Shown in pieces: positions 5,773 to 60,176 of a stretch of DNA of 64,000 bases. The position numbers and the translations under genes were made by a program. The notes beneath the pieces were generated by a model that did not search any database, was not told the DNA's origin, and saw only the letters and a program-made list of their open reading frames with translations. How positions within the stretch are numbered: the stretch's first letter is position 1; every line of letters starts with the position of its first letter. The DNA comes from Isoptericola jiangsuensis (lineage in GTDB: Bacteria > Actinomycetota > Actinomycetes > Actinomycetales > Cellulomonadaceae), in the NCBI RefSeq assembly GCF_002563715.1, contig NZ_PDJJ01000001.1:3348001-3412000 (forward strand), read 5' to 3'.

Positions 5773-5786
5773 CCGCTCCACCCCCG

Positions 5787-5858
5787 GCCCCGCTGTGGGC
5801 AGGAGATCCGCCGTCGGGCGAGGCCTTCGCACCGCAGATCTCCTGCCCGCAGCGGGGC
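5787..5858. repeat. 22-bp-arm palindrome between convergent genes
   Basis: Left arm 5787-5808 pairs with right arm 5837-5858, with one mismatch that is a G-U pair in RNA. The 28-base loop contains a second small stem, GCGA (5819-5822) with TCGC (5827-5830). It sits between the permease (+) and the stress protein (-). It may end both transcripts, but the arms are longer than most terminators here and the form resembles a dispersed palindromic (REP-like) element. Confidence 0.75.
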
Positions 5859-5862
5859 TGGG

Positions 5863-6804
5863 TCAGGCGGCGGACTCCTCCTGGAGCTCCTTGTCGCACT
5901 TGCGGGTCACGACCAGCACCGGGCACTTCGCGTGGTGGAGCACCGCCTGGCTCGTCGAACCCAGCAGCAGGCCCCGGAACCCGCCCCGGCCTCGCGACCC
6001 CACGACGATGAGGTCGGCGGCCGTCGAGAACTCCGTGAGCAGCTCCGCCCCGGAACCGTCCAGGACGTGCCGCTTGATGGTCAGCCCGGGGTGGTCCGCC
6101 GCGACGCGGTCGACGATGACGTCGAGCCCGGCCTTGACGTCGTCCAGCACCTGCTCGTGGTCGATCTGGGACGGCAGCCAGGCCAGCATCCCGGCACCCG
6201 TGCCGAGCGGCACCCCGGCGACCGCGACGAGCTCCGCACCCCAGGTCTCCGCCTGCCGCACCGCGTGCCGCAGGGCGACCTCCGCCGACGGCGACCCGTC
6301 CACCCCCACGACGATCCGGTGCACGTCGTGCACCGAGTCGGCGTCACGGCGGTCGGGGTCGTCCGCACCGCCCCGGTACGGCACCACGACCGTGGGGCAG
6401 TGGGCGTGCGCCGGCAGCGCGGACGACACCGTCCCCAGGAGTCGCTCCGTAAAGCCGCCGCGCCCGCGCGTCCCCACGACGGCCAGGCTGTGCTCGGCGG
6501 ACAGCTCGACCAGCACCCCGGCGGCGTCGCCGGTCGCGACCGTGCCCTGCACGGCGACGGCACGGCCCGCCAGGCGCGCCTCCGCCTCCGCGAGGACGGC
6601 CTTCGCGCCCTCCGCGATGGCGGTGTCGTCGAGGGCCGCGTAGCCGCCGTCGAGGGAGGCGGCGGTGAACGACGGCAGCGAGTAGCTGCAGACCACGTGC
6701 ACGCCCCAGCCGACGCGTTCCGCGTACGCCGCGGCCCAGTCGAGGGCGTGCAGGCTCGCAGGGGATCCGTCGACCCCGACCAGAACCACCTCAGGACGTG
6801 TCAT
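5863..6804 (-). CDS. universal stress protein with two UspA domains
   Basis: A 313-aa cytoplasmic protein made of two tandem UspA domains (about 4-145 and 155-300). Each ends with the ATP-binding pattern G-x2-G-x9-G(S/T): GTRGRGGFTERLLGTVS in the first and GSRGRGGFRGLLLGSTS in the second, so both are predicted to bind ATP. Double-domain Usps of this type are common in actinomycetes and relate to hypoxia and dormancy in mycobacteria. The start is the ATG at 6804. It is transcribed alone, with the palindrome at its 3' end and the NlpC terminator upstream. Confidence 0.93.
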   Translation of the reverse strand: MTRPEVVLVGVDGSPASLHALDWAAAYAERVGWGVHVVCSYSLPSFTAASLDGGYAALDDTAIAEGAKAVLAEAEARLAGRAVAVQGTVATGDAAGVLVELSAEHSLAVVGTRGRGGFTERLLGTVSSALPAHAHCPTVVVPYRGGADDPDRRDADSVHDVHRIVVGVDGSPSAEVALRHAVRQAETWGAELVAVAGVPLGTGAGMLAWLPSQIDHEQVLDDVKAGLDVIVDRVAADHPGLTIKRHVLDGSGAELLTEFSTAADLIVVGSRGRGGFRGLLLGSTSQAVLHHAKCPVLVVTRKCDKELQEESAA

Positions 6805-8127: not shown

Positions 8128-8167
8128 CGGAGGCCCGGTCCGCACCGTGGTGCGGACCGGGCCTCCG
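8128..8167 (-). terminator. terminator of the second NlpC/P60 gene
   Basis: An 18-bp perfect stem (8128-8145 with 8150-8167) and a 4-base loop lie 20 bases past the stop at 8187. The hairpin separates the two paralogues, so each is its own transcription unit. Confidence 0.88.
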
Positions 8168-20029: not shown

Positions 20030-21208
20030 TCACGGGCGGATCCCCCGGGCGTCGAGGGCGGCCACCAGCGGCGCGACGACGGCCTCCGATGTGACGAGGT
20101 GCGCGGCGCCCCGGGCCCGCTCGCGGGCGGCGGCCAGCACGGTGGGGTCGGTGAGGTCGAGGAGCCGGTCGGCGAGCGCGGCCGGGTCGGCCGGGGGCAC
20201 GAGCTCGACGTGCCCGGCGAGCAGCCGTCGCTGCGGCGGGGTGTCGGACGTGACGACGACGCAGCCCGCGGCGAGCCCCTGGAACACCTTGTTGGGGACG
20301 ACCCGCAGCCCCTTGGGGGTGGCGGAGAAGATGCCGAGGCAGACGTCGGCGCGCGCCACGAGCGCGGGCAGGTCGGCGGGCTCGACCCAGTCGACCCAGG
20401 TCACGCCGTCGGTGCCCGCGAGGGCGGCGCGGGCGGCGGCGTGGTCCTGGCCGGAGCCGATCATCGTCGCGGTGACGGGCGTGCCCGTGGCGGCCGCGCG
20501 GGGCAGGGCGTCGGCGAGCGCCCGGGCGACGACCTCCGCCCCCTGCAACGGGGTGAACAGGCCGAAGAACACGACGTGCAGCGGCCGGGCGGCGGCGCCT
20601 CCGTCCGACCCGACGAACCAGGCGTCGGGCGCCCCGACCGGGACGACGACGACCTCGCGGCCCGTCGAGCGTCTCTGAAGGTCCGTCATCGGGCCGCCAG
20701 GACGGACTTTCAGAGACGCTCGACGGTCGAGGGCCGCGGCCATCCCCGCGTGCTCGTCGGTGTCGACCAGGACGACGTCGGCGCAGGCGAGGGCGAGCCG
20801 GTCGAGCCCGCGCAGGAGGCGGACGCGCAGGCCGCGGGCGCCGCGGTCGAGGGCCGTGTCGGCGGCGAACACGAGGTGGTCGAGCACGACCGGCGTGCGG
20901 GGGTGCAGCAGCCGCGCGAGGACGACGTCGAAGTGGCCGAGGTAGCCGACGAGCACCGCGCCGGGGGCGCCGTGGGCACGGCGGTGGGCGAGGTCGTCGC
21001 GCACGAGCAGCGCCCAGCACGCCATCAGGCGCAGCGCGAGCAGCGGCAGCCGCCACGGCTGGCGCAGCATGCGGACCCGGGCGGCGGTGCTGAACCCGAG
21101 CGGGTGGTTCACCTCGGTCACGGTCCACCCCCGGGCGCGCAGCCCGGCGACGAGGATGCCGGCGCGCGGGTGGCGGGCGGCGTCGTAGGTGCCGAGGGCG
21201 AGGATCAC
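20030..21208 (-). CDS. glycosyltransferase family 4 containing an in-frame palindromic insert
   Basis: A 392-aa GT-B enzyme: N-terminal domain from VILALGTYDAARHPRAG, then the donor domain with VVFFGLFTPLQGAEVV, ADVCLGIFSATPKGLRVVPNK and FQGLAAGCVVVTSDTPPQRR. GTG 21208 is preferred because its GTGA overlaps the stop of the GT2 gene; the longer frame upstream would invade that gene. Between the two domains lies a non-family segment encoded by a 65-bp palindrome (20662-20726), so about 22 residues look inserted without breaking the frame. If the loop is tolerated the enzyme is active; this cannot be told from sequence. Confidence 0.85.
   Translation of the reverse strand: MILALGTYDAARHPRAGILVAGLRARGWTVTEVNHPLGFSTAARVRMLRQPWRLPLLALRLMACWALLVRDDLAHRRAHGAPGAVLVGYLGHFDVVLARLLHPRTPVVLDHLVFAADTALDRGARGLRVRLLRGLDRLALACADVVLVDTDEHAGMAAALDRRASLKVRPGGPMTDLQRRSTGREVVVVPVGAPDAWFVGSDGGAAARPLHVVFFGLFTPLQGAEVVARALADALPRAAATGTPVTATMIGSGQDHAAARAALAGTDGVTWVDWVEPADLPALVARADVCLGIFSATPKGLRVVPNKVFQGLAAGCVVVTSDTPPQRRLLAGHVELVPPADPAALADRLLDLTDPTVLAAARERARGAAHLVTSEAVVAPLVAALDARGIRP
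20662..20726. repeat. 65-bp palindromic element inside a glycosyltransferase gene
   Basis: Left arm 20662-20687 and right arm 20701-20726 are 26-bp inverted repeats with one mismatch; the 13-base loop is 20688-20700. Each arm begins CCGTCGAGCGTC read inward. It lies fully within the coding frame and is translated. No second copy was noticed in this window. Confidence 0.85.
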
Positions 21209-60020: not shown

Positions 60021-60176
60021 CCGCGAGTCAGCGCTGGTTCCCGCGAGTCAGCGCGGATCTCTGCGCTGACTCGCGGGACCCTGCGCTGAGTCGCGAGGAA
60101 CTGCGCTGACTCGCGGGGACCTGCGCCGACTGACCGCCTTCGGCGCTGACTCGCGGAGACCTGCGCTGACCCGCGT
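60021..60176. repeat. array of eight 20-bp-period units, two inverted against six
   Basis: The core CCGCGAGTCAGCGC starts at 60021 and 60041; its reverse complement GCGCTGACTCGCGG, exact or with up to a few changes, starts at 60063, 60083, 60103, 60123, 60143 and 60163. Period is 20 bp throughout. The most degenerate unit is 60123. The units fill the gap between convergent pspA and the amidotransferase gene. Confidence 0.9.
60040..60077. terminator. hairpin at the centre of the repeat array
   Basis: 60040-60054 pairs perfectly with 60063-60077 (15 bp, 8-base loop). It can terminate pspA and the convergent amidotransferase. Other unit pairs could form alternatives. Confidence 0.7.

Follow-up and report, generated by a model that had tools for sequence, protein, structure and literature searches.

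A fixed-length palindromic element in a glycosyltransferase gene of Isoptericola jiangsuensis and its association with genes for AbiEi-like, probable nucleases

Introduction

The window analysed here is a stretch of 64,000 nucleotides from Isoptericola jiangsuensis (contig NZ_PDJJ01000001.1, positions 3,348,001 to 3,412,000), which contains a minus-strand gene for a GT4-type glycosyltransferase with a near-perfect palindrome in its coding frame. A first, sequence-only reading regarded this palindrome as an inserted element of a kind known from the protein-coding genes of Rickettsia (RPE). Here, we describe the palindrome, its relatives in the genus and a nuclease gene that is bracketed by copies of it. 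We argue that the palindrome is probably a non-autonomous member of a REPIN-like population of hairpins, maintained by a nuclease that is unrelated to the RAYT transposases.

The element in the glycosyltransferase gene

The two arms of the palindrome (20662-20687 and 20701-20726) are 26 nt each, 96% complementary and separated by a 13-nt spacer (Table 1). As single-stranded DNA, the 65 bp fold at -33.2 and -31.3 kcal/mol for the two strands, an energy that was reached by none of 200 shuffles on either strand (z -10.8 and -8.4). The palindrome is translated without a stop codon, and its position in the coding frame is hereby confirmed; the residues that it encodes directly precede the domain matching Pfam Glyco_trans_1_4 (residues 211-352). 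The segment had also been taken to be extra to the enzyme, and the orthologues agree with this: the element is present at this site in four of 18 genomes of the genus (G000, which is the window's own genome with 4.04 Mb in one contig, G003, G001 and G006), and the other 14 are without it. An Rfam scan of 13 loci and of window positions 20500-20900 gave nothing over the gathering score, and the matches below it were nearly all to generic microRNA hairpin models; a known RNA family was rejected on this ground.

Table 1. Positions of the element, its parts and its host gene in the window
Feature	Position	Strand	Length	Remarks
Palindromic element	20662..20726	.	65 bp as seen	63-bp unit 20663-20725; in frame in glycosyltransferase gene
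Conserved family core, CGAGCGTCTCTG-n33-CAGAGACGCTCG	20666..20722	.	57 bp	
Conserved outer arm, left	20666..20677	.	12 nt	Position conservation over 87 copies
Conserved outer arm, right	20711..20722	.	12 nt	Position conservation over 87 copies
Variable inner stem and loop	20678..20710	.	33 nt, fixed	Genome-specific
GT4-type glycosyltransferase gene	20030..21208	-	392 aa	Host of the element

A dispersed family confined largely to the genus

When, as the sequence-only reading had proposed, the genome was searched with the arm (17 nt, up to three mismatches), there were 34 forward and 26 reverse matches, compared with one and two for a reversed control pattern. The expectation of a dispersed element was borne out, with at least 19 copies in the own genome and two further own genes carrying a copy in the same codon phase. 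Copies in G000 were counted at no more than three end mismatches, and copy counts are minimum counts as degenerate copies exist; two degenerate 57-bp copies in G000 and G003 were met at sites viewed for other reasons. The first 18 copies extracted from G000 are all 63 bp long and run from CGTCGAG to CTCGACG or variants of these. Most G000 copies, 17 of the 19, are less than about 0.86 Mb away from contig position 1.

Family copies are present in 13 of the 18 genus genomes. They number 19 in G000, 23 in G003, 13 each in G001, G006 and G007, 8 in G014, 4 each in G004, G010 and G012, 3 in G002, 2 each in G008 and G011 and 1 in G009, while G005, G013, G015, G016 and G017 have none at up to three end mismatches. 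Among the 203 genomes of the same bacterial family that lie outside the genus (of 221 in total), two have one match each, with three mismatches; the reversed control pattern gave one match each in three genomes. A scan of genome contigs that allowed gaps of 31-39 between the conserved ends found 35 stretches with 38 places, all with a gap of 33 and all in Isoptericola records, and a control with a gap of 35 instead of 33 had no match in the 221 genomes, the own genome included.

The structure of the palindromes was studied in a set of 87 distinct copies, from which two chance loci (L144, L145) had been dropped. This set is partial, as it comprises all copies of G000 and G003 and mostly copies with exact ends from the other genomes. 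The 12-nt ends are nearly invariant, although this conservation is partly a product of the search, which found the copies through their ends (at up to three mismatches); the inner 33 nt are variable. Pairing is nevertheless preserved in the variable part. Inner positions 16-24 form Watson-Crick pairs in 87% of cells in register, compared with 18-35% when one arm is slid by 1-4 positions. All 13 position pairs from 16 to 28 use two or more Watson-Crick types, each seen at least three times, and all four types are in use at positions 16 to 18. By contrast, the outermost 3 bp on each side of the 57-bp core are paired in only 64% of cells. In the consensus, the ends read CGAG and follow a CGT of loose conservation (C in 119, G in 116 and T in 89 of 174 arms), which is paired in part and stands at the head of a long palindrome whose first pairs are rich in G-C.

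A probable nuclease gene bracketed by palindromes

In five genomes, two copies of the palindrome bracket one gene, which in the own genome lies outside the window at about G000:C1:3554081-3555055. The product consists of an AbiEi-like region joined to a probable Vsr-type PD-(D/E)XK nuclease domain. PADLOC AbiEi models match all 27 of the nuclease-family proteins, with AbiEi_4 matching 20. The MTES_1575 profile scores 21.8, 23.6 and 23.5 bits in three proteins (E 2e-4 to 5e-5), below its cut-off of 38.2. NCBIfam has no match for the 27 proteins, and a sequence search of the PDB gave no relatives at E up to 1. The three neighbours tested at the own-genome cassette encode a sigma factor, RskA and DAHP synthase, with no AbiEii toxin gene among them.

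Of 16 genomes examined, 8 have the nuclease motif beside the DAHP synthase gene. In three of the eight (G004, G005 and G009), the gene is accompanied by other palindromes or by a poor palindrome; in G005, which has no copies of the G000 family, the homologous nuclease is flanked by a different palindrome at the same locus. G010 has a lone palindrome at the DAHP synthase locus. Matches to the protein number 48 in 16 of the 18 genus genomes, some of them being pieces of one gene, and the protein family occurs in 55 of 246 sampled genomes of the phylum. The own genome also harbours a second family of palindromes, which is linked to a nuclease paralogue of its own; it is found at five places, two of which bracket the gene. 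Palindromes of the GAGCGTGCTGG/GAGCGTGCCGG type at 6307-6372 and 325-386 of the own-genome locus L056 are perhaps further copies of this second family.

The association was scored for 44 nuclease genes of the genus, after removal of two with an in-frame stop codon (L203, L221). A palindrome is present upstream of 26 of them, downstream of 33 and on both sides of 22, with none at 7; in all 22 genes flanked on both sides, the two palindromes match each other. Control genes, numbering 465, came from regions chosen for element copies, which raises their rate; even so, only 37 have a palindrome upstream, 86 downstream and 7 on both sides, and a single pair is matched (two at a threshold of 13/16 instead of 14/16). 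Matched pairs in 22 of 44 nuclease genes against 1 of 465 controls give a Fisher value of 2e-25, although the genes are not independent; clustering of the nucleases at 65% identity leaves 26 clusters, 14 of which include a gene with a matched pair. The palindromes differ between nuclease paralogues and track the distance between the nucleases (35 genes, Mantel r 0.39, 0 of 2000 permutations).

Outside the genus, the same rule finds matched pairs at 5 of 28 loci (a truncated locus, L239, and an own-genome locus, L232, having been dropped), and three more loci (L233, L242, L256) look matched by eye beyond the scoring limits; the other loci fail the rule. In one of these outside genomes, G370, the arm of the nuclease-adjacent palindrome matches 89 times forward and 81 times in reverse at up to two mismatches, with none for the control. 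Among the matches listed, 35 adjacent arm pairs have a spacing of 36 in 31 cases, 35 in three and 37 in one.

Genomic placement of the copies

Genes around the 87 copies were called by a codon-usage script made for this analysis, not by an annotation. Tandem genes enclose 29 copies, convergent genes 28 and divergent genes 12, five of the last being upstream of a nuclease gene; nine copies lie over a gene 3' end, eight are intragenic and one is at a locus edge. The distance after the stop codon is 1-39 bp in 55 of 58 measurable copies. With 66 of the 87 between tandem or convergent genes or over a gene 3' end, coding sequence is not the main habitat of the family. The eight intragenic copies represent three host genes and are all in the same codon phase; the hosts are the glycosyltransferase (four genomes), an NAD-dependent epimerase (two) and an alpha/beta-hydrolase plus AMP-binding protein (two).

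For 12 of the 19 own copies, another genome has a copy at the corresponding site, as judged by both flanks. In a comparison of nine sites between G000 and G003, seven are without a family-like palindrome in the other genome, and two have a degenerate one that keeps the 57 bp with 4 of 24 end mismatches (copies 70 and 19). At three of the seven empty sites, an ordinary hairpin of 33-40 bp follows the same gene in the other genome (copies 6, 78 and 82).

AbiEi antitoxins bind inverted repeats at their own promoter. It is therefore conceivable that the AbiEi-like protein is an autoregulator, with the upstream palindrome as operator and the downstream one as terminator, and that the dispersed copies make up a regulon or serve by co-option as bidirectional terminators, and are not mobile DNA. 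The closeness of most measurable copies to a stop codon, the nine over gene 3' ends and the ordinary hairpins in an element-free relative at three of the nine compared sites are in favour of this account. We nonetheless regard it as unlikely. A regulatory role is hard to reconcile with copies inside three genes, and a terminator does not require a conserved 12-nt end or a stem specific to the genome; furthermore, matched flanking palindromes are typical of nuclease genes only, and the copies between divergent genes, including those upstream of the nuclease, do not fit. A strict terminator reading is contradicted by the 12 divergent and 8 intragenic copies.

At some sites, a single element in one species corresponds in another to two elements enclosing 0.8 to 2.1 kb of cargo (G000 354823-357045, L059; AK164, L134 5349-7099; chiayiensis, L126 6480-7371), as if the elements marked points of gene gain or loss.

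Copy number and homogenisation within genomes

Copies number 19, 23, 13, 13 and 13 in the five genomes that have the cognate nuclease, compared with 0-8 in the other 13 genus genomes; where the nuclease is absent from its locus, copies are fewer. In a two-protein tree, these five genomes do not form a single clade. G013, with no copies and no nuclease motif at the locus, is placed beside G006 (weak support of 0.32), and both are inside a clade with G001 (support 1.0), whereas G008 and G012, which have no nuclease at the locus and two and four copies, are sister to G007 (support 0.99).

Copies within one genome resemble each other in their 6-nt inner stems, which differ by 1.16 mismatches within a genome, 2.77 at orthologous sites between genomes and 2.93 between unrelated copies. 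The loops keep some memory of the site, with 3.91 mismatches of 9 at orthologous sites against 4.64 and 4.75. Since the stems are alike within a genome and unlike at orthologous sites, copies appear to stay at their old sites with stems that are overwritten or selected genome-wide. Of 63 dispersed copies, 41 have their nearest match among the nuclease-flanking copies of the same genome, with five tied (0 of 5000 permutations); by genome, these are 16 of 17 in G000, 7 of 8 in halotolerans, 11 of 21 in G003, 5 of 8 in chiayiensis and 2 of 9 in AK164. This behaviour of sites and stems is best explained by a trans-acting factor with changing specificity, notably the bracketed nuclease.

Quasipalindrome correction can give paired changes without selection, and the palindromes might accordingly be inert, being kept perfect by template-switch correction that also yields the compensatory changes. 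This is very improbable: it leaves unexplained the fixed length, the conserved ends and the presence at many sites, as well as the similarity of stems between sites of one genome and the matched pairs at nuclease genes.

Insertion sequences and other palindromes

Palindromes of G370 are interrupted by two insertion sequences of about 1.69-1.71 kb, which separate the two arms (L314, L316, L318 and L319; L315 and L317). One copy of each was scanned, and they carry an ISL3 and an IS110 transposase, respectively. The palindromes seem to serve as targets of these insertion sequences.

The same arrangement could be taken to mean that the palindromes are miniature inverted-repeat transposable elements (MITEs) of a conventional insertion sequence that shares their inverted ends, an idea that was already disfavoured and to which we give very little credence. 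The G370 insertion sequences are of different types and are situated within the palindrome, as if they had inserted into it. All own-genome arms with 0-1 mismatch are paired at the fixed spacing, so that no longer element with near-identical ends is seen. For a target-site duplication, which the sequence-only reading had suggested looking for, the flanks of the compared sites are too diverged for the element ends to be placed, and a duplication can be neither demonstrated nor dismissed.

Further palindromic sequences in the window include a cluster of inverted GCGAGTCAGCGC-type repeats at 60022-60131, which differs in sequence from the glycosyltransferase-palindrome family, and strong palindromes at 5783-5862 and 8128-8167, with arms of 32 nt (88%) and 19 nt (100%), respectively.

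A model for the maintenance of the palindromes

If the glycosyltransferase palindrome belongs to a hairpin population maintained by the bracketed nuclease, each such population of fixed-length elements within a genome would depend on its cognate AbiEi-like/Vsr-type protein. We infer that this protein binds and cuts the palindromes and brings about their copying or conversion. The AbiEi-like part would recognise the palindrome or its hairpin, and the nuclease part would cut at palindrome hairpins; repair from another copy would then place an element at new sites and overwrite the stems already in place elsewhere. Copies would be tolerated best shortly downstream of stop codons, at sites of which some carry an ordinary hairpin in a relative. 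A 57-bp copy, being 19 codons long and open in one frame, could also survive inside a gene, as in the glycosyltransferase.

The wider generalisation, for which we see an even chance, is that Actinobacteria hold an unnamed class of AbiEi-Vsr-type nucleases, each of which recognises DNA hairpins and drives the copying and concerted evolution of one family of fixed-length palindromes. The observations point to a selfish or co-opted repeat of a kind that has been little explored. If the generalisation holds, it would give the AbiEi-Vsr-type protein family a testable role and provide a natural example of 57-bp repeats evolving in concert, and ordinary terminator hairpins would be possible entry points for palindromes.

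Comparison with known systems

The nuclease proteins resemble the AbiE type IV toxin-antitoxin systems in matching AbiEi models, but differ from AbiEi in their extra C-terminal, probably nuclease, domain and in having no AbiEii among the three neighbours of the own cassette. The Vsr-type restriction endonuclease domains MTES_1575 and DUF559 (described in the available part of PMC3710099) differ in that no link to dispersed palindromes was found for them among the open-access papers listed by literature searches. Nor was one found there for the AbiEi-like/Vsr-type protein family itself, which is weak evidence of absence.

In the available excerpts of two studies of dispersed palindromic repeats, the only enzymes tied to such repeats are Y1 transposases (RAYTs and relatives), and the repetitive extragenic palindromes (REPs) of the CGTC type have none (PMC3733652, PMC3116915). 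The CGTC-type REPs, which include RPE-4 and RPE-6 of Rickettsia, are defined there by an unpaired CGTC tag and a CCA-like tail, and have stems of 8-9 bp with A-T first pairs and loops of 4-5 nt (PMC3733652). Like the Isoptericola family, they are palindromic, lie after genes and sometimes in frame inside genes, and have no RAYT. However, their short stems and loops are unlike the 57-bp palindrome, their five listed phyla exclude Actinobacteria and these excerpts report no transposase association (PMC3733652). The kinship with Rickettsia elements that the sequence-only reading had considered is therefore not upheld on structure for RPE-4 and RPE-6; the comparison covered CGTC-type REPs, not the longer RPE-1.

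The closest parallel is the REPIN/RAYT system. REPINs have, according to the portion of PMC3116915 available, a fixed length, conserved ends and a compensating spacer. The Isoptericola family shares with them the inverted conserved ends, a variable spacer for which length and the ability to form a hairpin are important, compensatory changes, several types per genome, each beside its own enzyme gene, and a mostly extragenic location (PMC3116915). That the family might be a RAYT/REPIN or CGTC-REP family in the strict sense, as its fixed length, conserved ends, compensatory spacer and position at gene ends would allow (cf. PMC3116915, PMC3733652), is scarcely credible given a unit structure unlike that of the CGTC REPs (PMC3733652, as available) and a Y1_Tnp profile (PF01797) that matches none of the 18 genus genomes, compared with 5 of 14 control genomes. 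A RAYT was rejected as the mobiliser on the latter result. The Isoptericola enzyme is AbiEi-like with a probable Vsr-type nuclease domain and not Y1, its gene is bracketed by two copies, the ends are CGAG with no GTAG tag and the hosts are Actinobacteria. The family thus works like REPIN/RAYT but is not a member, because the defining Y1 enzyme is absent from the 18 genus genomes. A second, unrelated protein family with its own palindromes would suggest that the dispersed-repeat lifestyle arose more than once; the proposed class, if real, would have evolved independently as a counterpart of RAYT/REPIN, based on restriction-type chemistry and repair from other copies.
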